In this document: positions 8,856 through 33,237 of the stretch, in pieces
How positions within the stretch are numbered: position 1 is the first letter of the stretch
How the letters are laid out: each line of letters begins with the position of its first letter
Assembly: GCA_014584695.1 (NCBI GenBank)
Contig: JACTMI010000016.1
Span: 1 to 64,000 of the forward strand
Source: Acidobacteriota bacterium
GTDB lineage: Bacteria > Acidobacteriota > Thermoanaerobaculia > Multivoradales > JAGPDF01
Length of the DNA stretch: 64,000 nucleotides
Reading direction: 5' to 3'
Position numbers and translations under genes: made by a program
Notes under the pieces: generated by a model
Told to the model about the DNA's origin: nothing
Seen by the model: only the letters and a program-made list of their open reading frames with translations
Database searches by the model: none

Positions 8856-9989
8856 CTACGTCCTGCCGGTCCGCCGGCGCAGGAGGACGAGCGCGCCGGC
8901 GGCGAGCAGCAGCGCGAGCAGCGCGAGGCCGGCGCCGTCGAGGGTCGGGATCTCGAGCAGCGAGGGCAGCAGCACGAAAGTCGCCGTCAACCTGCAGTCC
9001 TCGGTGATCGGGCCCGTCGTGTAGGTCGTGCCCACCAGGGTGCCGCCGCAGCCGGTGACCCCCTCGAGCCCGTAGCCGGGGTCGGGCAGGACGGTGAAGG
9101 CCACCGTCTGGCCAGGCTGGACGGCCTGCGGGGTCGACGGGTCGAGGCTCCCGCCCACTCCCGCCACCGGAGTCACGGTGAAGGTCGCCGCCACGAAAGT
9201 CGCCGTCACCGTGCAGTCGGCGGTGATCGGCCCCGTGGTGTAGGTCGTGCCCACGAGCGTGCCGCCGCAGCCGGTCACCGTGTCGATCGCGAAGCCCGGA
9301 TCCGGAATCGCCTCGAAGTCGATCGTCTGGCCCTGGGGGACGGCCTGCGGCGTCGAGGGATCGAGGCCGCCGCCCGGCCCCGCCACCGGCGTCACGGTGA
9401 AGGCGATCAGGAAGAGGTCGAAGTAGCGCCCGCCGCCGGTGTAGACCTGCGTGCTGGTGCCGGCCACGACGTCGTAGACGTGCGCTCCCGAGCTGTTGCT
9501 CCAGAGGATGTTGCCGTTCGTGAGCTGGACCACGCCGCGGGCGCCGCTGGCGGTGAACGAGGAGATCAGGGCGCCGGTCGTGGCGTTGAGCCGCACCACG
9601 TTGTTCGACGAGAAGCCCGCCACCAGCACGTCGCCGTTGGTCGCGTAGTTCATCTGCTCGGCGAAGTTGAGCGAGGTCGTGTCGTGGAACGTGCCGGCCG
9701 AGACGCCGGCGAGGGTGAAGGCGTGGATGTCGTCGTTGGCCGAGCTCGAGGAGACGAGCATCCCCAGCGGGTGCTCGAGGATGCCGAACGGGCTGGGCGC
9801 GAGCCCCACGGTGCTGAAGAAGCCGAGGTTGTTTCCCGCGCTGTCGAAGCGCACCACCGCGTTGCCCGGCGCGGTGTTGCCCGTCCCCGAGTTCGTGATG
9901 TGGATCACCCCGCCGAGCAGCGCCATGCCGCGCACGTTGTCGAGGCCACCCGTGGGCGGCGCGCCGACCGCGCCGAGGAAAGCGCCGCC
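8856..9989 (-). pseudogene. IPTL-CTERM surface protein lacking its N-terminus
   Basis: The coding frame begins abruptly at AGGAFLGAVGAPPTGGLDNVRG, immediately after the stop of the transglycosylase gene. It has no signal peptide, ribosome-binding site or credible start (in-frame GTG 9935 and ATG 9926 fall inside the conserved region). What remains is a beta-propeller-like domain (NTAPGNAVVRFDSAGNN, VVRLNATTGALISSF), two copies of a 73-residue repeat, and a C-terminal sorting tail. That tail is IPTLDGAGLALLALLLAAGALVLL plus an Arg cluster, matching the IPTL-CTERM signal processed by exosortase-like or rhombosortase-like systems. A deletion probably fused the 3' part of this gene to the 3' end of its neighbour. 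It could be translated by coupling, but would not be exported. Confidence 0.7.
8964..9401 (-). repeat. Two tandem copies of a 219-bp (73-residue) repeat
   Basis: Inside the IPTL-CTERM remnant, copy 1 spans 9401-9183 and copy 2 spans 9182-8964. Each begins FTVTPVAG and carries DPSTPQAV, a DPG(F/Y) turn, TGCGGTLVGTTYTTGPIT and a paired Cys. They resemble divergent InlB-B/bacterial surface repeats. The second half of the unit is almost identical between copies, indicating recent duplication or gene conversion. Confidence 0.8.
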
Positions 9990-9991
9990 GG

Positions 9992-11698
9992 CTACCCTGC
10001 GCCGCGGATGGTGAGGATCTGGCCGGGCTGGAGGAGGTTGGAGGCGAGGTGGTTGTCGGCCTTGATGCGCTCGATCGTGGTGCCGTAGCGGGTGGCGATG
10101 GTCCACAGGCTGTCGCCGTTCTGGACCCGGTGGCGGACGACCTCGCCGGGCGGAACCGGCTGCGTCGCGGCGCGCTGCGCGGTCGAGGCGGCGGCCGGGG
10201 CGGCGGCGCGGCGGCCGGCGCGGCCGGGGATCTGGAGCTGCTGGCCAGGGGAGATCTTGTGCGCGCTCGCCAGCCGATTGGCGGCGAGGATCGCCTGGAC
10301 GCTGGTGCCGTAGCGGGCGGCGATGCCCGAGAGGGTCTCGCCCGAGCGGACCCGGTGGACGCCGGCGACCGCCGCCGGGGCGGGCGCCTTGTAGATCGGC
10401 AGGCGGTCGAGATGGGCGGCGAGCGTCGGGCCGGCGCCGGGCGGGATCCGCAGCGCGTAGGCGGTCGGCGGCGTGGCGTTGCGGCGCAGCTCCGGGTTGA
10501 GCCGGGCGAGCGCGCCGGGCTCCAAGCCGAGCGCGCGGTCGAGCGCGTCGAGCGGCGTCGAGCGGGCGATCTCGACCGTCTCGTGGGGGACGGGCGCCAG
10601 CGGCTCGGGCAGCTCGAGGCCGTAGCGCGCGGGATCCTCGAGCAGCGCCAGCGTGGCGAGCAGGCGGGGGACGTAGCGGCGCGTCTCGCGCGGCAGCCGC
10701 GCGTAGAGATCCCAGAAGCGGTCGAAATAGCCGAGCGGCTGACGCTTGAGCTCGCGCAGCACCGCGCCCTCGCCGCAGTTGTAGGCGGCGAGCGCGGTCA
10801 TCCAGTCGCCGAACAGCTCGTGCAGCGCCGACAGGTAGCCGATCGCCGCCCGGGTGGCCTTCTCCGGGTCCATCCGCTCGTCGATCCAGTCGTTGCGGTC
10901 GAGGCCGTAGCGGTAGCCGGTCGAGGCGATGAACTGCCAGAGCCCGAGCGCGCGCGCGCTCGACAGCGCCCGCTCCTTGAAACCGCTCTCGACCAGCGGC
11001 AGCCACGAGAGCTGCTCCGGCAGGCCGGCTTCGGCGAGCGCCGCGACGATCGCCGGCCGGTAGAGTCCGGAGCGACGGTAGGCCTCGAGGAAGAAGTCGC
11101 GCTCGCGCCCGAGGAAGCTCGCGATCTCGCGCTCGACCTCCTCGTTGACCACCAGCGGCAGCGAGCCGTCCGCGCTGCCCACGCCGTTGCGCCGCGAGGC
11201 GTAGATCTCGACCACCCGCCGCGAGATCAACTGGCGCAGGCTCTCCTTCTCCTGCGCGAGCGCGGGGTCGCCGTTGGCGGCGACGCGCGCCATCAGCTCG
11301 TAGGCCTGGTCGAGCGCGGCGAAGGTGTCGTCGAAGTCGCCGCGCTCCCAGTGGCGGGCCGCCGTCTCGTAGGCCTCGAGCGAGGCCTGCAGCAGCTCGG
11401 CCGGCTCCGGCTCGGCGGCGGGGGGCTGAGCGTCCGTCTCGCCGTCGATCTCGCCCGTGACCTCTCCCGCGTCGGAGGCTCCTGCGGGCTCGGGCGCGAG
11501 CTCCTGGCTCCCCGGAGCCTGGTCGGGTTCGAGCTGCGCCGTCGGCAGCGCTGAGGAAGCTGCGAGCGGGTCGGGCGTCGCCTCCAGGTCGGCCGGCGGG
11601 GCGCCTCCGGAGCGATGGCCGCCGTGGGCGCTACAGCCGAGAGCGAGCGCGAGCGCGGCGGCGGTCGCGGTCCGGAGGGCGGGGGTCGGGTGGATCAT
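9992..11698 (-). CDS. MltD-like membrane-bound lytic transglycosylase, lipoprotein with two LysM domains
   Basis: This enzyme cleaves peptidoglycan glycan strands to 1,6-anhydro ends at the periplasmic face. ATG 11698 gives a lipoprotein signal ending LALALGC (lipidated Cys22); the frame runs open further upstream but loses that. A Pro/Glu-rich linker leads to a helical segment. The SLT domain follows, with LPLVESGFKERALSSARALGLWQFI (catalytic E237), TGYRYGLDRNDWIDERMDP and ALAAYNCGEG. Two LysM motifs (VHRVRSGETLSGIAARYGTS and VRHRVQNGDSLWTIATRYGTT) near the C-terminus bind glycan. Order and length match MltD. The stop abuts the beheaded IPTL-CTERM gene. A 160-bp gap separates it from the TonB-C-like gene upstream. 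Confidence 0.9.
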   Translation of the reverse strand: MIHPTPALRTATAAALALALGCSAHGGHRSGGAPPADLEATPDPLAASSALPTAQLEPDQAPGSQELAPEPAGASDAGEVTGEIDGETDAQPPAAEPEPAELLQASLEAYETAARHWERGDFDDTFAALDQAYELMARVAANGDPALAQEKESLRQLISRRVVEIYASRRNGVGSADGSLPLVVNEEVEREIASFLGRERDFFLEAYRRSGLYRPAIVAALAEAGLPEQLSWLPLVESGFKERALSSARALGLWQFIASTGYRYGLDRNDWIDERMDPEKATRAAIGYLSALHELFGDWMTALAAYNCGEGAVLRELKRQPLGYFDRFWDLYARLPRETRRYVPRLLATLALLEDPARYGLELPEPLAPVPHETVEIARSTPLDALDRALGLEPGALARLNPELRRNATPPTAYALRIPPGAGPTLAAHLDRLPIYKAPAPAAVAGVHRVRSGETLSGIAARYGTSVQAILAANRLASAHKISPGQQLQIPGRAGRRAAAPAAASTAQRAATQPVPPGEVVRHRVQNGDSLWTIATRYGTTIERIKADNHLASNLLQPGQILTIRGAG

Positions 11699-22152: not shown

Positions 22153-24759
22153 CTAGGGCGTCAGACCTTCGACCGAGCTCCAGAGCACGACCGAGCCGAG
22201 CTCGAAGTCGTCGCTGAAGATCCCGACGCCGGCCTCGCAGGTCCCCGGCAGCTGCGCATGGACGACCGACAGGTCGTCGAGGTACCAGCCCTCGCCGTCC
22301 CCCCCGACGAGATCGGTCGAGAAGCGGAAACGGATCTCGACCGCCGCGCCCGCGTGCGCCGAGAGATCGGCGACATGCTCCTGCCAGCCGATGTCGGTGC
22401 CGGTGAAGGCGCCGCGGCCGGCGGCGAGGCCGCAGGCGTTGTCGTCGGAGGCCATCGTGCCGGGGTAGTCGGGGGCGAGCGCGAGCGCCTGCCAGGGACC
22501 GCCCTCGACGCGCAGCTCGACCACGCCGCCGTCACCCGCTTCGATGTCGCGCGCCGACCAGAAGCGCAGCTCCGAGCTCTCGCCCGGCGACAGCTCGAGC
22601 GGCGGCGTGACCAGCGCGATGCAGGAGTTGACCGGCCCCTCCGACCAGAAGCTGCGCAGGCCCGTCCGCGCGCGGCCGCCGAAGTGCCAGCCGGCGTGCT
22701 CGGGGCGGTTGCCGATGTCGCCGGCGGTGTCGAGGGGCGGATCCCCGACTTCGGCGCCGGTGGCGAAAGTGCCGTCGTCCATGGCGCCGACCGGCTCGAC
22801 CGAGCGCCGGACGACGTTGGGGTCCTCGGCGCCGGCGGCGAGGTCGACCGCGCGGACGACGTAGTAGGAACGGACTCCCGCCGGCGCTCCGAAGTCCCGA
22901 TAGAAGGTGCCCGCGAGGCCGCTGGCGATCCGGTTGGCGGCCGACGGCGTGAAGTCGCTCTCGGTCGAGCGGTACACGGAGTAGCCGACCGGTCCACTGC
23001 AGATCGGCGTCGCCGCCGCCCAGCCCAGCTCGACCGTGCACCAGGAGTTCCCCGGCGTCGTCGCGGTGGCGAGGCCCGCGAAGGTGGGATAGGCGGTGCA
23101 GGCCCCCGTGGTGGTCGCGGCGGCGCAGGCGCCGCGCACCGACGGGCAGCCCGAGGCGCTGGTCTCGAGCACCCGGTAGCCGTAGGCAATGGCGCCCGAT
23201 GCGCTGGTGTCGGCGAACGCGGGCAGGGCGAGGCCGGTCGCGAGCGTCTCGAAGGCGCCGCCGCAGCCCCCCTGCGCCCGCTCGACCGTGAAGCTGGCGC
23301 CGGCGGCGCCGCTGCCCGTCCAGGCGAGATCGATCCGGTTGTCGCCGGCGGGGGTCGCCGCGAGGCCGCCCGGCGGGGCCGGCGCCGAGCAGAGATTCGG
23401 CTGCAGCACGAACAGACCCTGCTCGATCCCCGACACCACCACCACGCCGCTCGGGAAATAGGGGTAGACGCTCCAGGCGCCGTTGAAATTCGCGGCGTCG
23501 TTGGCCGGATAGACGTCGAAGAAGCCGGCCTGCACGATCGCCGGCGGCGTCGCGTCGAGGTCGATCAGTTGCAGGATGCGCAGGCCGCTCCGGTAGTTGG
23601 CCTGGTAGCTGTAGTTTCCCTTGACGTACTGGTTGTGGTCGATCGCCGGCGAGGTCGATTGGAAGTGACCCAGGAGCACCGGCTGGGCGAGATGGCGCAC
23701 GTCCCAGACGTAGGTGCGCGTCGGGTGGCCGGATTGCTGCTCGTCGAGCTCGTCGTCGACCAGGAAGTGGGCGAGATCCTCGGTCAGCCACCCCTGGTGG
23801 GTGTAGCCGCTGCCGGCGTACGTGGTGCGTGAGACCTGCGACGGCGCCCCTTTGTCGGTGACGTCGACGATCGTCACCGAATCGGTGTTCGAGGCGAAGC
23901 AGATCTCGCGGCCTGCGTAGACGGGGTCGGGACCGTCGTAGGTCACGCACTGGACGTCGTGGGTGTAGCCGTCGGCCGAGAAGCAGCCGGCGAACTGCGG
24001 CGCCGCCGGGGTCCCGATGTCGACCATGTGCAGGCCGCCCGAGCAGTTGTTGTGGCCCGAGGTCGAGCCGCCGACGATGTAGGCGAAGCCGCTCGCCTCG
24101 TTGATCGCGATGTTGTGGGCGCTGCCGAGGCCGGGATAGTGGGCGGTCTCGGCGAAGGTGACCGGCGGGGTGGCGACCGCGCGCAGCTGGGTCAGATCGA
24201 ACACCTGCATGCCGTGGTGCCCGATGCCGTCGGCGACGATGAAGGCGTGGTCCTGGTAGACCTTGATGTCGCGCCAGACGCCGCTCGCGTTGCAGCCGCT
24301 CGCGCAGGTGTGGGTGGGCAGCTTGCCGAGGTAGACCGGGTGGGTCGGGTTCGAGATGTCGACGAACGAGGTGCCGTTGCGCAGGCCGACCAGCGCGTAC
24401 TCCTTGCCGGTCAGCGGGTCGGTCCAGCCCCAGATGTCGTTGGCGTAGCCGGACGAAGTGGCCGCGCCGCCGATCGACGCGAGCGGCAGGAACTCGAGCA
24501 GGTCGACGTTGTGGCAGGGGAAGCTGCCGGCCATGCCGTCGACGCAGGGAGTGAAGTGCTCGGGCGCCATCGGCGCCGCCTCGATCTGGTCGGCGAGCAG
24601 CTGCCGCATCGACCGGGTGAGCGTCGAAGCGGCCAGCGTGGGCGCGGCCGCCGCGGGTGCGGCCGCCGGGGCGCTCGCCGGCAGCGCGGCGAGCGCGGCG
24701 AGGACGGCGGCCACCCGGCAGGCCGGGCGGCGGAACGAAACGGCAGGGGCGAGCCTCAT
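22153..24759 (-). CDS. Choice-of-anchor B family secreted protein
   Basis: This 868-residue exported protein has a signal peptide (residues ~15-35). It then has an LVIVD-repeat beta-propeller: NDIWGWTDPLTGKEYALVGL, TSFVDISNPTHPVYLGKLP, WRDIKVYQDHAFIVAD, GMQVFDLTQL, HNIAINEASGFAYIVGG and HMVDIGTPAAPQFAG. These are diagnostic of the choice-of-anchor B family. Two fibronectin-III-like domains (~460-640) and a jellyroll-like C-terminal domain follow. The protein ends IFSDDFELGSVVLWSS, a motif shared with the two peptidases at 28119 and 29866. In other genomes family members end in varied sorting tails, hence the name. Function is unknown; surface attachment or secretion is inferred. The upstream region on its strand faces tsaD. 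Confidence 0.88.
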   Translation of the reverse strand: MRLAPAVSFRRPACRVAAVLAALAALPASAPAAAPAAAAPTLAASTLTRSMRQLLADQIEAAPMAPEHFTPCVDGMAGSFPCHNVDLLEFLPLASIGGAATSSGYANDIWGWTDPLTGKEYALVGLRNGTSFVDISNPTHPVYLGKLPTHTCASGCNASGVWRDIKVYQDHAFIVADGIGHHGMQVFDLTQLRAVATPPVTFAETAHYPGLGSAHNIAINEASGFAYIVGGSTSGHNNCSGGLHMVDIGTPAAPQFAGCFSADGYTHDVQCVTYDGPDPVYAGREICFASNTDSVTIVDVTDKGAPSQVSRTTYAGSGYTHQGWLTEDLAHFLVDDELDEQQSGHPTRTYVWDVRHLAQPVLLGHFQSTSPAIDHNQYVKGNYSYQANYRSGLRILQLIDLDATPPAIVQAGFFDVYPANDAANFNGAWSVYPYFPSGVVVVSGIEQGLFVLQPNLCSAPAPPGGLAATPAGDNRIDLAWTGSGAAGASFTVERAQGGCGGAFETLATGLALPAFADTSASGAIAYGYRVLETSASGCPSVRGACAAATTTGACTAYPTFAGLATATTPGNSWCTVELGWAAATPICSGPVGYSVYRSTESDFTPSAANRIASGLAGTFYRDFGAPAGVRSYYVVRAVDLAAGAEDPNVVRRSVEPVGAMDDGTFATGAEVGDPPLDTAGDIGNRPEHAGWHFGGRARTGLRSFWSEGPVNSCIALVTPPLELSPGESSELRFWSARDIEAGDGGVVELRVEGGPWQALALAPDYPGTMASDDNACGLAAGRGAFTGTDIGWQEHVADLSAHAGAAVEIRFRFSTDLVGGDGEGWYLDDLSVVHAQLPGTCEAGVGIFSDDFELGSVVLWSSVEGLTP

Positions 24760-24878
24760 CGAAGCACCTCGAAGCGGGAAGCGGCCTGCTGACGGCGAGT
24801 GGGGGCGACGATAGCAGAGCCGGGCGCGCCCGCGCCGCGCGCCGCTCGACGCGCGGGGGCGCTATCCTCGACGCCGCG

Positions 24879-25949
24879 ATGGACCGTCCGCTCGTGCTCG
24901 GCGTCGAGACCTCCTGCGACGACACCGCCTGCGCGCTGCTCGACGGCGCCGGCCGGGTGCTCGCCTCGGTCGTCTCGTCGCAGCTCGCGGCGCACCGGCC
25001 CTTCGGCGGCGTGGTGCCGGAGATCGCCTCGCGCGAGCATCTGACGAACTTCCGGCCGGTGCTCGAGGCCGCGCTGGCGCGGGCCGGGGTCGGCCTCGAC
25101 GCGGTCGAGGCGGTGGCGGCCACGCGCGGGCCCGGACTGGTCGGGTCGCTGCGGGTCGGCCTCGCGGTCGCGAGCGCGCTCGCCTGGCGGCGGGGTCTGC
25201 CCTTCTTCGCCGTCCACCACCTCGAGGGGCACCTGGTCTCGCCCTACCTGGGGCTCGACGGCGCGCCGGCCGAGCCGGTGCCGGAGCGCTTCGTCGGCTT
25301 GGTGGTCTCGGGCGGGCACACCGCCCTCTACGGCGTCGAGGGCGGGGCGATCGAGACCCTGGCCGAGACCCGCGACGACGCCTTCGGCGAGGCCTTCGAC
25401 AAGGTGGGCAAGCGGCTCGGTCTCGCCTATCCGCAGGGTCCGCGGGTCGACGAGCTGGCCGAGCTGGGCGACGCCGCCCGCGCGCCGCTGCCGTCGCTCG
25501 CCGGCACCGAGGCGCTCTTCTTCTCATACTCGGGCTTGAAGACGCAGGCGATCCTGGCGATCGAGGCGCTCGAGCGCCGGGGCGAGCGGACAGTCGCCGA
25601 CCTGGCCGCCGACCCGCCGCTGCCGCCGGCGGCGCTCGACCTCCTCGCCGGCTTCCGCGCCTCGGCGGTGCGGCAGGTGCTCGACCGGCTGACCCGGCTC
25701 CACCGGCGCCGGCCTTTCGAGCGGCTGGCGGTGTCGGGCGGCGCGGCGGCGAACCGGCTGCTGCGGCGGTCGCTGCCGGCGTGGGCGGCCGAGCGCGGCG
25801 TCGAGTTGCGGCTGGTGCCGCTCCTCTACTCGGGGGACAACGCGGCGATGATCGCCTTCGCGGCGCTGGCGCGGCTCGCACGCGGCGAAGCCGACGATCC
25901 GCTCCGGGTCGAGGCCGAGAGCCGGGTGCCGATCGGCACCACTCTCTAG
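24879..25949 (+). CDS. tsaD: tRNA N6-adenosine threonylcarbamoyltransferase TsaD
   Basis: TsaD transfers the threonylcarbamoyl group to A37 of ANN-decoding tRNAs, working with TsaB, TsaE and TsaC. The protein (356 residues, usual length) begins LVLGVETSCDDTACALL (phosphate 1 region). It carries the metal-binding HHLEGH (113-118), VVSGGHTALYGV and DDAFGEAFDKVGKRLGLAYP, and ends with SGGAAANRLLR and PLLYSGDNAAMIA. ATG 24879 puts the first motif at the expected place. The frame is open further upstream but without sense. TATCCT at 24863-24868 ends 10 nt before the start and no ribosome-binding site is visible. None of tsaB, tsaE or tsaC is nearby. Confidence 0.95.
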   Translation: MDRPLVLGVETSCDDTACALLDGAGRVLASVVSSQLAAHRPFGGVVPEIASREHLTNFRPVLEAALARAGVGLDAVEAVAATRGPGLVGSLRVGLAVASALAWRRGLPFFAVHHLEGHLVSPYLGLDGAPAEPVPERFVGLVVSGGHTALYGVEGGAIETLAETRDDAFGEAFDKVGKRLGLAYPQGPRVDELAELGDAARAPLPSLAGTEALFFSYSGLKTQAILAIEALERRGERTVADLAADPPLPPAALDLLAGFRASAVRQVLDRLTRLHRRRPFERLAVSGGAAANRLLRRSLPAWAAERGVELRLVPLLYSGDNAAMIAFAALARLARGEADDPLRVEAESRVPIGTTL

Positions 25950-25953
25950 CCGC

Positions 25954-26460
25954 TCAGGCCCGCGGCTCGGAGTGCGGCGGCGCGACCGGCTCCAGGGCGG
26001 CCCAGCGCTCGCGGTCCTGGAGCCAGAGGGCATTCCAGTAGAGGCGGATGGCGGCGTCGGAATGGTCGGCGCGAAGGCCCGCGAGGGCGGCCCGGGCGGC
26101 GGTTTCGGTCGGCGGCGCGACCTCGGTCTCTTCGTCGATCAAGCCCTCTTCGTGGGGGATGGCGAGGGCGTCGAGAAAGGCACCGAGCAGCGAGCGGCGG
26201 GCGCCGACGTGGAGCGAGAGCAGGAGCGCCTCGGCCAGGGATTCCGGCGGCGTGGCGAGGCCGGCCACGGCGCGCACGCGCTGGTCGAGCGGCACCTTGT
26301 GGAAGGCCTGCGGCCGCACGCGCAGGATCTTGACGACCTCCTGCGCGGCGGCAACCGCCGCCTCTTCGGTCGGACGCTCCCAGAAGGCGCGCGCGGCCTC
26401 GAGTCGCTCCTCGCGCGGGAGGGTGCGCCAGAGGCGCAGGGCGCTGGTCTCGAAGGACAT
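25954..26460 (-). CDS. Conserved-looking hypothetical protein
   Basis: The 168-residue, mostly helical protein begins MSFETSALRLWRTLPREERLEAARAFW. It has no signal peptide, membrane segment or recognised motif. It is acidic in the middle and ends in a Pro-rich tail. Its stop lies 4 bp from the tsaD stop (convergent), and its start is divergent from plsC across a 70-bp gap. On the minus strand TAGACT (26474-26469) ends 8 nt before the ATG, suggesting a leaderless message. Codon use and G+C match the neighbours, so I regard it as a real core gene of unknown role. Confidence 0.7.
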   Translation of the reverse strand: MSFETSALRLWRTLPREERLEAARAFWERPTEEAAVAAAQEVVKILRVRPQAFHKVPLDQRVRAVAGLATPPESLAEALLLSLHVGARRSLLGAFLDALAIPHEEGLIDEETEVAPPTETAARAALAGLRADHSDAAIRLYWNALWLQDRERWAALEPVAPPHSEPRA

Positions 26461-26530
26461 GGCGGCGGAGTCTATCGCGCGCCGCGGCGCCGCCCTCCCG
26501 CGCGGTGGCGCGCTGGGGTAGGCTCGCGCC

Positions 26531-27367
26531 GTGGGTTCGCCGCGCCGCTCGCCCGCGCGTTTCCTCTGGGCACCGCTCAACGCTCTCCAGGCGCTCTTCA
26601 CGGTGATCTGGACGGCGCTCTGGATCTCGGTCGCGCTCGCGGTCGCGGCGCTCGCGCGGCGCCCCGCGCCCGCGCTCTGGCTCGCCCGCTGGGTCTGGGC
26701 GCCGGGGCTCCTCGCGGGCGCCGGCGCCCGGCTGCGGGTCACCGGCGGCGAGCAGCTCGATCCCGCGCGGCCGGCGCTGGTGGTCGCCAACCACCAGTCC
26801 TGGATCGACATCCCGGCCCTCTTCCGCGCGCTGCCGGTGCCGCTGCGCTATCTCGCCAAGCGCGAGCTCGGCGCGGTGCCGTTCCTCGGCGCCTACATCC
26901 GCGCCATGGGCATGGTCTTCGTCGATCGCGGCGCGCCGCGCGCCGCCAGCCGGTCGGTGGGGACGGCGGCGGCGCTCTTGGCGCGCGGCGCGCACGTGGT
27001 CTCGTTCCCCGAGGGGACGCGCTCGGCCGACGGCCGCCCGGGCCACTTCAAGAGCGGCGGCTTCGGCGCGGCGCTCGAGGCGGGTGCCGACGTCCTGCCG
27101 GTGGCGATCGTCGGCGCCGGCCGGGTGCTGACGCGCGAGGGGCTGTTCCGCGTCCGCCCCGGGGTGATCGAGGTGCGGATCGGGCGGCCGATCCCGACCA
27201 CCGGGCTGCCGCCCGGCGCGCGGGCCGCGCTCGCCCGGCGCGCCGAGTCGGCGGTGCGCACGCTGCTGGCGGCCGAGCCCGCGCCGAGCCCGGCGGGCGC
27301 GTCGGTCGGCCTCGACTTCGATTCGAGCTTCCATCCCAACGAGACGCCCACTGGAGAGCCGCGATGA
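26531..27367 (+). CDS. plsC: 1-acyl-sn-glycerol-3-phosphate acyltransferase
   Basis: The enzyme acylates lysophosphatidic acid at sn-2 to make phosphatidic acid at the inner membrane. The 278-residue protein has N-terminal hydrophobic helices (~15-60) and the four acyltransferase blocks: block I NHQSWIDIP (the HX4D-type His/Asp pair), block II FVDRGAPRAA, block III FPEGTRSADG and block IV VLPVAIVGAG. Start GTG 26531 lies 6 nt after TAGGCT (26519-26524), another short-leader arrangement. The stop overlaps the DinB-like gene by 4 bp, so the two are co-translated, though no functional link is obvious. Confidence 0.9.
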   Translation: MGSPRRSPARFLWAPLNALQALFTVIWTALWISVALAVAALARRPAPALWLARWVWAPGLLAGAGARLRVTGGEQLDPARPALVVANHQSWIDIPALFRALPVPLRYLAKRELGAVPFLGAYIRAMGMVFVDRGAPRAASRSVGTAAALLARGAHVVSFPEGTRSADGRPGHFKSGGFGAALEAGADVLPVAIVGAGRVLTREGLFRVRPGVIEVRIGRPIPTTGLPPGARAALARRAESAVRTLLAAEPAPSPAGASVGLDFDSSFHPNETPTGEPR

Positions 27368-27858
27368 CGATCGCCCAGTCGATGCTGCCCGAATTCGATC
27401 AGGAGATGGCCGGCACGCGCCGCACGCTGGCGCGGGTGCCGTGGGAGAAGTCGGATTGGAAGCCGCACGCGAAGTCGATGGCGCTCGGGCACCTCGCGGG
27501 CCACGTCGCCGAGGTCGTCACCTGGGCCTCGTACACCTTCGAGAGCACGGAGCTCGACTTCGCCACCTTCGACTATCGGCCGCCGCGACACGCCTCGACC
27601 GACGAGCTGCTGGCGACCTTCGACCGCTACGTCGCGGCCGCGCGCGCGGCGCTCGCCGGCGCCGACGACGCGGCGGCGATGGCGCCCTGGACGCTGCGCC
27701 AAGGCGACCAGGTCTTCTTCACCCTGCCGCGGATCGGCGTCGTCCGCTCGATGGTGATGAACCACATGATCCACCACCGCGCCCAGCTCGGCGTCTACCT
27801 GCGCCTGCTCGACCTGCCGGTGCCCGGGCTGTACGGCCCCTCGGCCGACGAACAGTAG
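27364..27858 (+). CDS. DinB-family (DUF664-like) protein
   Basis: The 164-residue protein matches the DinB/YfiT four-helix metal-binding fold. It has a first-helix segment LPEFDQEMAGTRRTLARVP, a conserved WKPHAKSMALGHLAGHVAEVVTW containing the first His ligand, and MNHMIHHRAQLGVYLRLL with two further His ligands. This is the typical H-x(n)-HxxxH triad. Members include mycothiol- or bacillithiol-dependent transferases and damage-induced proteins; substrate is unknown here. ATG 27364 overlaps the plsC stop. It ends before a hairpin and repeat-rich non-coding stretch. Confidence 0.85.
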   Translation: MTIAQSMLPEFDQEMAGTRRTLARVPWEKSDWKPHAKSMALGHLAGHVAEVVTWASYTFESTELDFATFDYRPPRHASTDELLATFDRYVAAARAALAGADDAAAMAPWTLRQGDQVFFTLPRIGVVRSMVMNHMIHHRAQLGVYLRLLDLPVPGLYGPSADEQ

Positions 27859-27894
27859 CTGAAAGGGGAGGGCACGCGCGGCTCATCATCTAGA

Positions 27895-27918
27895 AGGGGA
27901 GGGCACGCGCCCTCCCCT
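27895..27918. terminator. Hairpin downstream of the DinB-like gene
   Basis: A perfect 10-bp stem, A/T closed and then GGGGAGGGC with GCCCTCCCC (27895-27904, 27909-27918), holds loop ACGC, 37 nt after the stop. Sixteen bases of its left arm and loop are a direct repeat of 27864-27879, so part of the hairpin has been duplicated. No U-tract follows. Confidence 0.5.
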
Positions 27919-27954
27919 CGGCCAGCGGAGTGAATCCGCTGGCCTCACCCCTCC

Positions 27955-28061
27955 GCGGTCGCTCGCCTGGCGGCTCGCTCCGCTTTCTCTGCGGGCGCTC
28001 GCCTGGCGGCTCGCTCCGCTGGCCGCACTTCTCTGCGGTCGCTCGCCTGGCGGCTCGCTCC
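27955..28061. repeat. Three direct copies of a 21-bp extragenic repeat
   Basis: GCTCGCCTGGCGGCTCGCTC plus C occurs at 27961-27981, 27997-28017 and 28041-28061, each preceded by CTCTGCGG- or CTCCGCGG-like sequence. The first two are 36 bp apart and the last two 44 bp. They fill the non-coding gap between the DinB-like gene and the convergent subtilase gene. Confidence 0.75.
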
Positions 28062-28118
28062 ATCGGCTTCACACCTGGAGCTTCGGCCGTTGTTGCGGGG
28101 ATGTCTTGGCGGAACCGC

Positions 28119-29681
28119 TCAGGGGCAGCCGGCGGGGGGGGCGGGGGGCTCGCCGACCTGGTCCCAGCGGCAGAAGTCGCCGGGCTCGAAGTCGTCGGCG
28201 AGGAGCACCGCCTGGACGGCGGCGAGGACGTCGAGCCGGCCCCAGCCGAAGCTGTTGTTGGGGATTTGCGAGGACGGGATGCCGCCGCAGGTCTGGGTGA
28301 CGTTGACCGCGGGATTCGCCGTCCGCTCGATCACCGCTTCGATCACGTCGACGTTGCCGCGCAGCGCCGGGTGCGCCGAGAGCAGCAGCGCCACGCCGCC
28401 GGCGACGTGCGGGCCGGCCATGGAGGTGCCGGAGAAGGTGCCGTACGAGCTGTTGCGGATGCTCGAGCGAACGCTCGTGCCGGGCGCCGAGAGGTCCGGC
28501 TTCCTCCGGTTCGAGCCGTCGACGGTCACCGGCCCCCGGCTGCTCGACGAAGCGAGGTTGTCGGCGGAGGTCGTGTTGCCGACCGTGAAGGAGGCCTCGT
28601 AGATCGCCGCCGGATCGGTGACGGACGAGCAGCCGGAGCCCGAGTTGCCGGCCGAGACCACGACCACGATGCCGGCGGCGCGCAGGCTCTCGACCACCGC
28701 CTGCATGACCGCGAAGTTGCCGCTGTGGCACCCTTCCGAGGTCGGACAGCCCCAGGAGTTGTTGATGACGTCGGGGGCGAGCGCCGGGTTCGGGTTCTGG
28801 CCGGCGAGATCGGTCGGCGCCAGGAACCACTGGAAGCACTCGATGTAGGTCGACGGCGTGCCGTCACCGACGTTCATGTTGCGGCAGCCGATCCACTTCG
28901 CCCCCGGCGCGACGCCGATCTGGTTGGCGCCGCCGTCGTCGCCGACCATCGTCCCCATGGTGTGGGTGCCGTGGTTGTGGTCGTCGCAGGGAAAGGCCGA
29001 GTTGGCGCCGCAGACGCCGCCGCCCGCGTGGATGGCGTCGTGCCAGTGGAAGTCGTGATTTGCGCTGGCGCCGTTCCAGCCCCGGTACTGGGCGAGGAGC
29101 GCCGGATGGTCCCACTGGTAGCCGGTGTCCTGGCCGCCGACCACCACCCCCTGGCCGGTGTATCCGAGCGCCCAGACGTCGTCGGCGTTGACCTTGGCGA
29201 CGCCCCATTCGATCGCCAGCGGCGCCTCCGGCACGCGCTCGGGATCCTCCGGCTGGCGCGTCTCGGGGACGCGGACCGGTGCGTCGCCCGAGAGCCTCGC
29301 CACCTCCGGCCGCGCCGCGAGCTCGGCGACGAGCGCGGCGTCGGCCTCGACCCAGACGACGTTGGCGACCCAGAAGGGGCGGTGCGGCACGCCCAGCTCG
29401 CGCAAGCGCTCGAGCAACGGCGCCTGGCTGCGGGCGGCGACGGCGGCGAGCGCGCGGTGGACCGCCGCCCCCTTCTCCAGCTTCGTCCCCTGGATGCCCG
29501 CGAGCTCCGGCCGCTCGGCGAGCTCGACCAGCACGCCCACCCGGGCTCCCGGCGCCGCCTCCGCGAGCCGGCCGAGGATCCAGGGGTCCACCCGCCCGCC
29601 GGGCGGCGGCGCGGCCAGAGCGAGCGTGGCGCAGGCGAAGCAGGCGGCGGCTGCGAGCGTGCGGCGGCGGCAGGGCGACAT
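28119..29681 (-). CDS. Secreted S8 (subtilisin-family) serine peptidase
   Basis: The 520-residue protein begins with a Sec signal (TLAAAACFACATLALA). An inhibitor-like propeptide (~30-140) follows. The catalytic triad is D185 (VVVGGQDTGYQWDHP), H237 (DDHNHGTHTMGTMVGD) and S420 (GTFSGTSMAGPHVAG), with oxyanion Asn308 (INNSWG). Several Cys pairs suggest disulphides. The tail LLADDFEPGDFCRWDQ carries the DxFExG-x(4)-W motif shared with two neighbouring secreted proteins. ATG 29681 was chosen for the signal peptide; longer open frame upstream has no coding sense. It is downstream of the M36 gene on the same strand, separated by hairpins, so probably transcribed separately. Confidence 0.92.
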   Translation of the reverse strand: MSPCRRRTLAAAACFACATLALAAPPPGGRVDPWILGRLAEAAPGARVGVLVELAERPELAGIQGTKLEKGAAVHRALAAVAARSQAPLLERLRELGVPHRPFWVANVVWVEADAALVAELAARPEVARLSGDAPVRVPETRQPEDPERVPEAPLAIEWGVAKVNADDVWALGYTGQGVVVGGQDTGYQWDHPALLAQYRGWNGASANHDFHWHDAIHAGGGVCGANSAFPCDDHNHGTHTMGTMVGDDGGANQIGVAPGAKWIGCRNMNVGDGTPSTYIECFQWFLAPTDLAGQNPNPALAPDVINNSWGCPTSEGCHSGNFAVMQAVVESLRAAGIVVVVSAGNSGSGCSSVTDPAAIYEASFTVGNTTSADNLASSSSRGPVTVDGSNRRKPDLSAPGTSVRSSIRNSSYGTFSGTSMAGPHVAGGVALLLSAHPALRGNVDVIEAVIERTANPAVNVTQTCGGIPSSQIPNNSFGWGRLDVLAAVQAVLLADDFEPGDFCRWDQVGEPPAPPAGCP

Positions 29682-29761
29682 GAGAATCACTCCTCGGTTC
29701 TGGGGGCGAGCGCGCACGCTACCACGCGCGCCGCGGCGCCGCCGTGGCCAGGCGAACGAAC

Positions 29762-29850
29762 GGCCGGTCCCCCTCCCCGCGGGGATGAGGAACCGGCCTC
29801 GGGGGGCGAGCCGTCGGCGGGCGGCGCGCCAGGGCGGCGCTCGCCGACGG
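29762..29850 (-). terminator. Two consecutive hairpins after the M36 peptidase gene
   Basis: Reading the minus strand past the stop at 29866, the first hairpin pairs 29850-29839 with 29822-29811 (CCGTCGGCG-type arm, one G-U). The second pairs GGCCGGT (29762-29768) with ACCGGCC (29792-29798) around an inner CCCC/GGGG stem. They lie between the M36 and S8 genes and probably separate their transcripts. Confidence 0.55.
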
Positions 29851-29865
29851 TCGAGAGTCACTTCG

Positions 29866-32800
29866 TCACGGACAGGCCGCCGCCGCTCCGGTCGACCAGG
29901 CGCAGCTGTTGCCGCTCTCGAAGCCGTCGGCAAAGAGCGGCACCTCCGCCTGGCAGGTGTCGAAGAAGTGCTGCAGGACCGCGGCGCGGTTGACCTCGCT
30001 CATCGCCTCGAGACCGAAGGCGAGGAAGGTCGAGAAGTAGGTCGAGCCGAGCTTCGAGGTCGCGCCCAGCTTCGTGTTGCCGGCCGGCAGATCGCCGCGG
30101 AAGGCGGTCTGGCCGCTGCCCAGCGTCAGCTCGTCCGAGAAGTCGCTGAACAGCCCGCTGTAGGTGAGGGTCAGATCCTGGAAGGCCGAGTAGACGTTCT
30201 CGCCGTCGACCCGGGTGTAGTCGCCACTGTCGGAGGCCACCTGGCTGAAGCCGAGATACTCGGCCATGAAGGCGTTGGCGGCCTGGGTGCCGGAGCCCAG
30301 CATGTCCCAGGCGTAGTCCTGGGAGGAGAGGAAGAAGCAGCGGCCGTTCTGCAGGTAGAGCGAGAGGGCGGTCTGCGACGCCGCCTGGGGACCGGCCGAG
30401 GGGCTGGTCGAGCCGGTGAAGCGGTCACCGGAGAACCAGACCACCGTCTTGTAGCCCGACATGTCCGCGAAGGTCGGCTCGCCGCCCTGCGCCACGACGT
30501 CCCAGACGTCGTAGACGACGAGCGAGTTGAGCGTCGTCTGGTAGCGGTCCTGGACATTGGGGGCGTTGTCGTCGTCGTCGACCAGCAGCACCGACGGGAT
30601 GCCGGTGGTGAACTCGAAGACCGCCGAGGCGGCCGAGGTCCCGCAGGCGTTCTCCGACACCACGCGCCAGTAGTGCAAGGTGCCGACGGCGAGGTTGGTG
30701 GTGACGGCGTAGGAGGCGGCGGCGAGACCGCTCGCCGAGGCGACGATGTTGGTGAAGCCGGCGTCGGTCGCGATCTCGACCGAGTAGGACGCCGCCGTGG
30801 CCACGGGGCTCCAGGTGAGCAGGGGCTTGCGGGCGGTGCCGACGTCCCCGTCGGGCGGCGAGACCAGCGCCGGCGCGGCGGGGGTGCCGACATCGACGGT
30901 CAGGGCGAAGCTGTCGGTGTAGTTGCTGACACCGTCGTCGGCGGTGACGTCGATCGTGTAGGTGCCGGCCCCGGCGACGGCGGTGTTGCCGATCGTCAAC
31001 TGGATGGTCTTGGGCAGCGGCCCGGCCACCGGGTTCTCGCTGAAGCCGGCGGTAGTGCCAGCCGGATGACCGACGGCCGACATGTCGACCGGCGGCGAGG
31101 TGAAGGCGGGCCCGACCAGGACATCCTGGACGTGGCTCGTGCCGGCGCAGACGCGGGCGTCGTCGCCCGCGGTGCCGAACGAGCAGATGAGCGGCAGGGC
31201 GAAGCCGTTGGTCGCGCTCGTCGAGTTGGGACCGGGCGTGGATGCGTCCTCGCCCAGGCCGAAGGCGGCGAAGGCTTCCCAGATGCGACAGACGTCCTCG
31301 CCGCCGTTGAGGCTGGCGGCGGCGGCGATGATGCCGTCGCGGACGTCGAGGAAGGTCGGGCTGCAGGCGGCGTTCTTGAGCCCCTGGCTGACGTAGTGGA
31401 GCGCCCGGATGTTGCCGGCGCCGGAGGTCGAGTTCCAGATGTCCGGCTCGAAGCCGTGGTCATCGACCAGGCGCCAGTAGACCTCCCAGGCTGCCTGGGC
31501 CCAGACCGAGCCGACGCCGTGCGGGACCGCGACGGAGCCGATCGTCTCGTAGGTGTAGGTGTTGACCGTCGGGTCGGTGCTGTAGGGCTGGGGCCGGATG
31601 CCGCTGCCGATCAGGTAGAGGCCGACCGGCCGGACGTCGGTGCCCTGGTCGCCCGGCTCGTGGGTGTAGACCAGGCCCCACCAGTCGGAGTAGCCCTCGC
31701 CGCCCTGCTGCTGGTTGCCGAGGCAGCTGACGTTCGACGGGCCGCCGACCAGGCGGTTCGAGATGCCGTGGCCGTACTCGTGGACGATGACCAGGTTGTC
31801 GAGGTCGCCGTCACGGGTGGGGGAGACGTTGGCGCAGATGTACATCCGCATGCGGCCGGGTGAGCCGTCGGCGGGGGTCAGGAAGTTGGCGTTGCAGGTG
31901 CCGGCGCCCGACTGGGCGAGGGCGCGGACGTGGTCGTTGCCGGCGCCGCCGTTGCCGTAGTTGTTGACCTGGAAGTTGCCGGCGACTTCGTCGAACCCAT
32001 AGAGATACTGAGTATCGTGGATGATGTTGTTCCAGTAGAAAAGGTTGGCGACCGCGGCCGGACGGTACGTCGAAGGATGCTGAGTGAGATCGATCGGAAA
32101 CTCGCAGGAGATCGAGGCGCCGCACTCGGTCTCGCCGGCGGGCGAACCGGGTTCGGTGTTGTTGCCGTCGCTGTCCTCCCAGGCGTGGACGTTGTTGCCG
32201 CGGGTGATGGTGAACTCGGCGCCCGGGGCGCCGTTGGTGTCGTGCCAGCCCCACGGCGAAGCGGTCAGGTCCCACGGGTCGGTCTCGATGACCCGGCCGT
32301 CGCCCGGCGGGGCGGGCGTGGCGTTCAACGGGCTCTCGATCGGCGGCGGGTAGACCTTGTAGGTGGCGTCGGCGACCCAGTCGTAGCGGGTCCAGACGCG
32401 GCCGTCCACGGCGTCGACGGTGAAGTCGAAGACGTGGTCGTGGTCGAGCGTCCAGAGCTGGAAGTTCCAGACCAGGCGCGCGTCGGCGCCGGCCGGCAGG
32501 TACATCAGGCGCGCCTCGACCGGCTCGAGCGAGAGCTGGTCGGCGATCAGCCGGGTGACCTGCTGAGCCCCCGGATACGTCGCCACGACGCGCGGCGCGG
32601 CCGGCGCGGCGGCACCGAGGTGGCGTCCGGCGGCGACCACGGCGTCGGCGGCGGTGAGCGCTGGCGCCGTCGCGTTGGCGGCGCTCGCCAGGCCGGGCAC
32701 GAACTGGTTGTTGAGCAGCAGGATGCGGCCGTCGCTCGCGACGTTGACGTGGAGCTGGCCGTTGTAGACCGGGATACCGCCCGAGCGCTGGCGCAGGTAG

Positions 32801-33237
32801 AGATGGGTGACGCCGCTGGTCGCGGAGTAGACCTCGTCGGTGACCTCGTAGTCCTCGAGGTCGCCCGGAGCGAGGCCGAGCAGGTCCACTTCGGCCGCGA
32901 CGAAAGCGAGCGCGACCTGGACCGGATCGTGGCTCCGGTCGGCGCGAGTCACGAAGCCGCTGGCGTTGGCGAGCTTGCGGGTGGCGCCGGTCTCGGGGTG
33001 GTATTCGGCCCGCACGCCCGGGACCTCGGCGGCCAGGCGAGCGACGGCGGCGAGCTGGGCGGCAGACGGGGCGCGGACGGACCCGCGCTCGGCGACGACG
33101 CGCAGGTCGTAGTTGCGACCGTACTCGGCGCCCTCGCTCCCCTTCTCGCTCGCGGCGAGCGGCAGGGCGGCCAGGGTGAGCAGGGTGGCGAGCGCGAGCG
33201 CGCGCCGGCTGCGGGACGAAGTTCGACGTTCGTGCAC
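29866..33237 (-). CDS. Secreted M36 (fungalysin-family) zinc metallopeptidase
   Basis: This is a 1123-residue exported protease. A signal peptide (ALALATLLTLAALPLAA) is followed by an FTP/propeptide region (~40-230; AEVDLLGLAPGDLEDYEV, THLYLRQRSGGIPVYNGQLHV). The M36 catalytic domain has zinc motif HEYGH (~486-490; VIVHEYGHGISNRLVGG), third ligand Glu in GGEGYSDWWGL, and NLFYWNNIIHDTQYLYGFDE. C-terminal fibronectin-III-like and a Rossmann/GATase-like beta region follow (PSVLLVDDDDNAPNV, YKTVVWFSGDRF). The last residues LFADGFESGNSCAWS match the tails of its two secreted neighbours. It is probably made as a zymogen and processed outside the inner membrane. It is divergent from the RHS gene at 33338. 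Confidence 0.93.
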   Translation of the reverse strand: MHERRTSSRSRRALALATLLTLAALPLAASEKGSEGAEYGRNYDLRVVAERGSVRAPSAAQLAAVARLAAEVPGVRAEYHPETGATRKLANASGFVTRADRSHDPVQVALAFVAAEVDLLGLAPGDLEDYEVTDEVYSATSGVTHLYLRQRSGGIPVYNGQLHVNVASDGRILLLNNQFVPGLASAANATAPALTAADAVVAAGRHLGAAAPAAPRVVATYPGAQQVTRLIADQLSLEPVEARLMYLPAGADARLVWNFQLWTLDHDHVFDFTVDAVDGRVWTRYDWVADATYKVYPPPIESPLNATPAPPGDGRVIETDPWDLTASPWGWHDTNGAPGAEFTITRGNNVHAWEDSDGNNTEPGSPAGETECGASISCEFPIDLTQHPSTYRPAAVANLFYWNNIIHDTQYLYGFDEVAGNFQVNNYGNGGAGNDHVRALAQSGAGTCNANFLTPADGSPGRMRMYICANVSPTRDGDLDNLVIVHEYGHGISNRLVGGPSNVSCLGNQQQGGEGYSDWWGLVYTHEPGDQGTDVRPVGLYLIGSGIRPQPYSTDPTVNTYTYETIGSVAVPHGVGSVWAQAAWEVYWRLVDDHGFEPDIWNSTSGAGNIRALHYVSQGLKNAACSPTFLDVRDGIIAAAASLNGGEDVCRIWEAFAAFGLGEDASTPGPNSTSATNGFALPLICSFGTAGDDARVCAGTSHVQDVLVGPAFTSPPVDMSAVGHPAGTTAGFSENPVAGPLPKTIQLTIGNTAVAGAGTYTIDVTADDGVSNYTDSFALTVDVGTPAAPALVSPPDGDVGTARKPLLTWSPVATAASYSVEIATDAGFTNIVASASGLAAASYAVTTNLAVGTLHYWRVVSENACGTSAASAVFEFTTGIPSVLLVDDDDNAPNVQDRYQTTLNSLVVYDVWDVVAQGGEPTFADMSGYKTVVWFSGDRFTGSTSPSAGPQAASQTALSLYLQNGRCFFLSSQDYAWDMLGSGTQAANAFMAEYLGFSQVASDSGDYTRVDGENVYSAFQDLTLTYSGLFSDFSDELTLGSGQTAFRGDLPAGNTKLGATSKLGSTYFSTFLAFGLEAMSEVNRAAVLQHFFDTCQAEVPLFADGFESGNSCAWSTGAAAACP

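Follow-up and report, generated by a model that had tools for sequence, protein, structure and literature searches.

A C-terminal tail shared by exported proteins of Thermoanaerobaculia resembles the first strand of a jelly-roll domain and may pair with a separately encoded remainder

Why should unrelated exported proteins, encoded close together, end in the same short sequence? The question arises from a 64,000-nucleotide stretch of DNA (the window: positions 1 to 64,000 of contig JACTMI010000016.1, assembly GCA_014584695.1) from a member of the Thermoanaerobaculia (Acidobacteriota), in which a choice-of-anchor B protein, a subtilase and a fungalysin all carry a tail of the form D-x-F-E-x-G-x4-W. 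An initial annotation had drawn attention to this likeness, and our analysis bears it out; indeed, the annotation understated how far the tail extends. The relevant features are as follows.

22153..24759, minus strand: choice-of-anchor B protein, 868 amino acids; TIGR04312 at residues 71-453 (E 5.5e-147), MAM-like domain at 715-832, tail last
22156..22221, minus strand: tail of the choice-of-anchor B protein, IFSDDFELGSVVLWSSVEGLTP; motif at 22180-22212
28119..29933, minus strand: frame of the S8 (subtilase) peptidase, likely start 29681 (28119..29681, 520 amino acids); signal peptide
28122..28205, minus strand: tail of the S8 peptidase, LLADDFEPGDFCRWDQVGEPPAPPAGCP; motif at 28164-28196
29866..33237, minus strand: M36 (fungalysin) metallopeptidase, 1123 amino acids; GTG start, signal peptide
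29869..29937, minus strand: tail of the M36 peptidase, LFADGFESGNSCAWSTGAAAACP; motif at 29896-29928

These three were the only matches (allowing at most one mismatch) when the DNA of the window was searched with the pattern, where shuffled sequence would lead one to expect 0.05. Exact matches number 64 across the 4.35-Mb genome (G000), all of them in long open frames, and the reversed pattern has a single match. A stop codon follows within 31 codons in 59 cases; the distance from the tryptophan to the stop is exactly five residues in 26 of these 59 tails, and the final residue is proline in 38. The consensus, [LIV]-F-[A/S/V]-D-[G/D]-F-E-[S/T]-G-[D/N]-x-x-x-W-S-x-x-x-P-stop, owes its D, F, E, G and W to the search pattern itself, but the flanking positions are conserved as well. 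A profile built from 55 of the 59 tails, after alignment, found 84 matches in G000 (scoring covered 105 candidates per genome, so that a count of 105 means at least 105). The five internal copies lie directly after a signal peptide (L080, L032) or elsewhere (L060, L085, L050). Degenerate tails such as DGFKSG, DSFGIGTDRW and DDFECQSTASW (L274 of G280, L282 of G259 and L072, respectively) imply that the strict pattern undercounts. At contig ends of G000, two RHS-like frames (L050, L071) carry a motif copy, LIFADDFESGD.SAW, which in L050 stands upstream of the repeat part.

The 64 proteins are diverse by Pfam and NCBIfam: they include FG-GAP (8) and S8 (3) proteins, beta-helix, M28, M36, M14 and Calx-beta proteins, choice-of-anchor B and Q proteins, agmatine deiminase-like proteins and others. 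A heuristic and permissive signal-peptide score (threshold 2.3) was passed by 49 of 51 motif frames, compared with 83 of 160 control frames from the same regions. The initial annotation had itself considered that the motif might prove as frequent inside proteins, or on cytoplasmic ones, as at the ends of exported proteins; with 59 of 64 copies near a stop, and mostly exported cargo, neither was the case. Searched against Pfam and NCBIfam, the tails (the last 42 or so residues of 55 proteins) gave no convincing match even at E 10, and a literature search found no paper describing a D-x-F-E-x-G-x4-W tail (the literature cited here consists of parts of PMC3237569, PMC3764139 and PMC10916295).

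Among 247 genomes sampled from the phylum, tens of matches were found only in the window's order, and genomes outside it had 0 to 3. Within the order (72 genomes, to which the genome counts below refer), strict-pattern counts ranged from 0 to 167. One genus, g3 of family f3 (21 genomes), had 0 to 2 strict matches, which is the background level, and none with the tail profile. A stricter pattern found, among named genomes, mostly records of Thermoanaerobaculia and other Acidobacteriota; in 94 of 119 places a stop lay no more than 35 residues away (the frame being open-ended in 6 of the 119). Gammaproteobacterial carriers also occur (Marinicella, L165). In Chloroflexi, Actinomycetota and Acanthopleuribacter, however, the motif is internal, and mostly opens a domain of about 200 residues.

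Complete domains of this kind, from those three groups and from the window's own order, open with [IVL]F[AS]DGFE[SA]G[DN]xxxW[ST], which is the tail consensus. F5, D7, F9, E10, G12 and W17 were invariant in 12 of 12 aligned complete domains, although these had been found through the motif itself. In an AlphaFold model of the domain of L178 (mean predicted local distance difference test score, pLDDT, of 74), the chain adopts a jelly roll whose strand 1 (E3-8) is the motif. This model matches polysaccharide lyases and Cip1 (3zyp: Z 14.4, root-mean-square deviation 3.0, 176 aligned), and likewise the X122 structure 8q2a (Z 14.2, root-mean-square deviation 3.3, 184 aligned); rows for botulinum and tetanus toxins in the same comparison were given no weight, as they reflect a generic jelly-roll lectin-like subdomain. 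By sequence, too, the nearest solved chain was Cip1 (E 0.0026 with the domain profile), in an alignment starting from its SDDFESG. To judge from sequence, the tail is strand 1, together with the calcium-loop segment that follows it, of a Cip1/X122-like beta-jelly-roll (concanavalin A-like) domain, standing alone at the C-terminus.

The part of the Cip1 structural account used here describes a calcium ion enclosed by the N-terminal Phe6-Trp15 loop, a third loop and the last strand, with the side chains of Glu7, Ser37 and Asp206 (the last of these in the last strand) as ligands (PMC3764139). The invariant F-E-x-G...W of the tail would be the equivalent of the Phe6-Trp15 loop, the tryptophan spacing being one residue shorter in the tail. 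Copies directly after a signal peptide are known from L080, L032, L191 and L144 (that of L191 being followed by what looks by eye like alpha/beta-hydrolase sequence), and these fit a plug usable at either end of a protein, unlike a C-terminal cleavage signal. In L283 (P0001, G305:C23), a frame of 1594 amino acids with cadherin-like and fn3 domains, there are four tandem 22-residue motif copies, one of them with an altered glycine, and jelly-roll domains come after them; the array is possibly a multivalent version of the tag.

If the tail is one strand of a domain, where is the rest? A profile of the domain lacking strand 1 had matches in 43 of the 72 genomes, none of them in g3, and a second search with a profile of the candidate acceptors themselves again gave 43 of 72. 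In many genomes the match is a small exported protein, consisting of a signal peptide with the core domain immediately after it. The representative in G000 is the following.

Contig C9, about 211,680-212,309, minus strand: candidate acceptor (L318:6681-7310), about 210 amino acids; signal peptide MKLKGLAVLVVLLLAAAPVSAA, then a core starting VSITVTAAAALQGNFGMRV

Of 34 such signal-peptide-led copies just one had strand 1, whereas 30 of the 42 interior copies had it (p 2e-10; a hydropathy threshold decided which copies counted as signal-peptide-led, and both totals exclude domain copies with a profile start above 10 or with fewer than 25 upstream residues). The sole signal-peptide-led copy with strand 1, L351, comes from the tail-poor genome G262. 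None of the 34 has a C-terminal motif of its own, and the aspartate of the last strand is invariant in 20 of 20 aligned acceptors (A6 alignment). Searches of NCBIfam and Pfam with the acceptor gave no family above the cut-off.

Tails and core also keep company across the order. Of the 50 genomes that the tail profile matched at least once, 43 had the domain; of the 22 that it did not match, none did. Taking as tail-rich those genomes with at least 20 tail matches, we saw a standalone protein lacking strand 1 in 27 of the 33 tail-rich genomes, compared with 4 of the 39 tail-poor ones (p 5e-10, or 5e-5 without g3); the acceptors of each genome were judged by reading loci and the genome tables compiled by hand from the searches, and the genomes are related by ancestry, so that the counts are not independent and the p values overstate the association. 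In family f76, the strand-1-less standalone protein was seen only in G266, G267 and G275, all of which are among its five tail-rich members. Elsewhere in f76, where tails are few, the counterparts of tailed cargo proteins finish instead with strand 1 plus the whole domain. Thus, L386, L393 and L394, which are 55, 55 and 57% identical to the window's choice-of-anchor B protein over 390-416 alignment columns, have strand 1 and the complete domain in cis at their C-termini, and L385, L388, L383, L377 and L384 (with L289 and L290 of f77) are in-cis forms that pair with the tailed L042 of G000. The single strict-pattern match of G271 is the in-cis strand 1 of L386, so at least some of the few motif matches in tail-poor genomes are something other than free tails.

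From the identity of the segment, its loss from the standalone protein, the cis forms of the same cargo and the co-occurrence, all of them comparisons of sequence, we consider it probable that the tail and the standalone core together make up a single domain in trans, a split domain acting as tag and catcher. Tailed proteins (the 84 profile matches of G000) and the acceptor would be exported independently of each other; once beyond the inner membrane, the tail would dock into the groove that the acceptor leaves open for strand 1; a single calcium ion would be bound jointly, as in Cip1, by the invariant glutamate of the tail and the invariant aspartate in the last strand of the acceptor; and the acceptor would thereby hold the cargo, possibly at a surface polysaccharide. 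Docking, the shared calcium site and the place of anchoring or surface display are what we infer from the rest. A link between acceptor and surface polysaccharide is suggested by gene neighbours, because glycosyltransferase, sulfatase, MBOAT or acyltransferase genes adjoin the acceptor gene in all five neighbourhoods read (G000, G252, G014, G136 and G266), and the fold family is also that of carbohydrate-active proteins. Sulfatases near the acceptor gene (L318:7374-12999, L374, L373, L371) share an ending of their own, LxxLxALGYL, which is perhaps another common C-terminal feature.

Several observations weigh against this split-domain reading. Strand 1 is of low confidence in the model of the L178 domain (pLDDT 45-61), and a model of the MAM-like domain plus tail (mean pLDDT 58.5) left the tail poorly defined and was unusable for it. 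The absence of strand 1 is not peculiar to signal-peptide-led copies: 12 of the 42 interior copies lacked it by regular expression (some of these retain a visible DFES), and seven loci of another subtype (L375, L376, L378-L382) have neither strand 1 nor a leading signal peptide. The correspondence between genomes is imperfect in both directions. Tail-rich G255, G273 and G274 (93, 70 and 91% complete) showed no domain at E 1e-3; G250, G256 and G296 match the domain, but no strand-1-less standalone protein was seen in them (of these three, loci were read in G250, where L293 and L357 have strand-1-like segments and L390 a degenerate one). Conversely, tail-poor G229, G300, G301 and G302 do carry an acceptor, with 2, 8, 11 and 3 tail matches, respectively. 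Finally, a single acceptor for some 80 cargoes would have to be abundant.

The second core subtype, that of the seven loci above, which belongs to family f76, has the conserved sequence GDFEAC..V.A..VQV..PGATF.AG..I.L..GFS in place of strand 1.

The most conventional alternative, and the one towards which the initial annotation had leaned, is that the tail is a C-terminal sorting or secretion signal of the usual kind, read by an export machine such as a type II-like system or cleaved by a processing enzyme; the standalone domain would then be unrelated to it. Strict C-terminal placement, fixed spacing to the stop and exported cargo are all in keeping with this, and the Tat (twin-arginine translocation)-type signal on one tailed protein, L038, fits a machine that takes folded substrates. 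For comparison, the window also encodes a protein with one of the known signals of this kind.

8856..11006, minus strand: IPTL-CTERM protein (TIGR04174 search), with the classical tripartite tail EIPTLDGAGLALLALLLAAGALVLLRRRTGRT; given for contrast only, being outside the tail system

The annotation was right to keep the two apart. The IPTL-CTERM sequence is genuine and differs from the shared tail, in which no transmembrane helix was found among the 0-20 residues that come after the tryptophan in the 59 G000 tails (17-residue hydropathy reached 1.6 in 4 of the 59 when the last 60 residues were scanned), and no basic terminal cluster either, the net charge of the last ten residues being zero or below in 50 of the 59 and +1 in the other 9. 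G000 has 15 IPTL-CTERM matches and one PF09721 exosortase (C41:71609-72079), and across the order it is IPTL-CTERM that exosortase follows: exosortase occurs in 33 of the 72 genomes, both occur in 30, and 5 of the 72 are discordant (with a cut-off of at least 2 IPTL-CTERM matches). Against the tail, 14 of the 72 are discordant, comprising seven tail-rich genomes without exosortase and seven exosortase carriers that are tail-poor. Exosortase, with IPTL-CTERM as its companion, is ruled out as the partner of the tail, whose presence varies independently of both in these genomes, and the co-occurrence with a processing enzyme that the annotation had envisaged fails in this case.

A type II-like secretin fares little better as a partner. 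Secretin matches of some kind occur in all 72 genomes; the 21 tail-less g3 genomes show only a weaker class (best E about 1e-39 to 1e-43), and most others have a second, stronger match, which speaks for a link with export. Yet the stronger secretin is also present in G303 (no tail matches) and G260 (one, weak), so secretin alone fails to explain the pattern of tails. The type IX protein SprA (TIGR04189) matched in none of the 72 genomes, and the controls for that search likewise gave no match. The g3 genomes lack not only tails and exosortase but also the jelly-roll core and the stronger class of secretin, a joint absence that looks like a single loss of an entire apparatus for exported proteins.

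The M36 proteases bear on the same alternative. Among homologues of the window's enzyme, the catalytic domain runs straight into the tail in L206, L218 and L222, a P-like domain precedes the tail in L199, and a MAM-like domain does so in L211, L212 and L220; three M36 proteases, L263-L265 (two from G301, one from G303), have IPTL-CTERM in its place, which could be taken to favour a sorting signal; and tail-less paralogues accompany tailed ones in the same genomes. Such variable endings indicate that the tail is portable, that it occupies the slot of an anchor and that some M36 proteins can dispense with it; and because tailed and tail-less paralogues share one genome, the tail is probably not needed for export. 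A sorting signal would also leave the copies behind signal peptides unexplained. What survives of the annotation's proposal is a common C-terminal tail on diverse exported proteins; a secretion route as its meaning we now regard as unlikely, the sequence favouring a structural role.

It is less likely still, and in our view quite improbable, that the tail is indeed strand 1 but binds some other strand-acceptor, or that tailed proteins bind one another, with the standalone protein being a complete, short version of the fold. Motif arrays like that of L283 exist, and some tail-rich genomes show no acceptor, as this explanation would allow; but the standalone family begins right after the missing segment and retains the aspartate of the last strand, and g3 and G303 lack both tail and domain, while G260 comes close to lacking both. 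That the tails are decaying and now functionless vestiges of a C-terminal domain that has been lost is very improbable: in-cis complete domains of relatives do show that such a domain once existed in some proteins, but 64 exact matches in G000, and up to 167 elsewhere, on unrelated proteins in several families of the order, keep a preferred distance to the stop and a D, F, E, G and W that would not survive decay.

How does the proposed split domain compare with systems already known? The closest relatives in fold are the Cip1 core (PDB 3zyp) and CAZy X122 (8q28, 8q2a), which share the jelly roll of the complete domains described here; Cip1 has the same N-terminal DDFESG...W segment, and a structural calcium between the N-terminal loop and the last strand. 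In Cip1 and X122 the segment lies within one chain, whereas in the genomes studied here it stands free at the end of tens of other proteins, the core being encoded by a gene of its own. Short C-terminal homology on unrelated exported proteins, many per genome, is likewise typical of LPXTG, PEP-CTERM, IPTL-CTERM, GlyGly-CTERM and MYXO-CTERM, and the tripartite signals are also found on anchor-varying families such as choice-of-anchor B and M36; unlike them, the present tail has no transmembrane helix, basic cluster or co-occurring exosortase, and some copies are N-terminal, after a signal peptide.

Two mechanisms of non-covalent assembly also come to mind. In donor-strand complementation, as in chaperone-usher pili, a beta-sandwich of immunoglobulin fold lacking one strand is completed by another polypeptide, giving a polymer of subunits. 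If the pairing proposed here is real, the likeness would lie in an acceptor without its strand (33 of 34 copies) and a free donor strand (a tail whose consensus is that of strand 1); the differences are that the fold is a jelly roll, that the donor stands at the C-terminus of tens of cargoes and that no subunit polymer has been seen so far. In the cohesin-dockerin system, a small cargo module is captured by a receptor domain with the assistance of calcium; unlike the dockerin, which is a folded EF-hand-like module, the tag here would be a fragment of the receptor's own fold.

Taken as a whole, our proposal, which we offer only tentatively, is that an order of Acidobacteriota (Thermoanaerobaculia) may use a natural calcium-assisted tag-and-catcher derived from an evolutionarily split jelly roll, strand 1 having come to tag the C-termini of tens to more than 100 exported proteins per genome and the remainder serving as a shared exported acceptor for their display, a new display principle involving neither membrane anchor nor sorting enzyme. 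Should docking be shown, the principle would be new; otherwise, the tail would still be a new C-terminal homology region of known structural origin. If the proposal is true, it would provide a short protein-display tag that binds non-covalently and with dependence on calcium, a testable acceptor gene and a case of the evolution of a domain from cis to trans. It would add to lipid anchors and membrane-helix sorting signals a third way of holding exported proteins, through structural complementation of a split domain in which many cargoes share one acceptor, and would allow thousands of unannotated proteins, from a group rich in uncultured organisms, to be placed at the cell surface or outside the cell.

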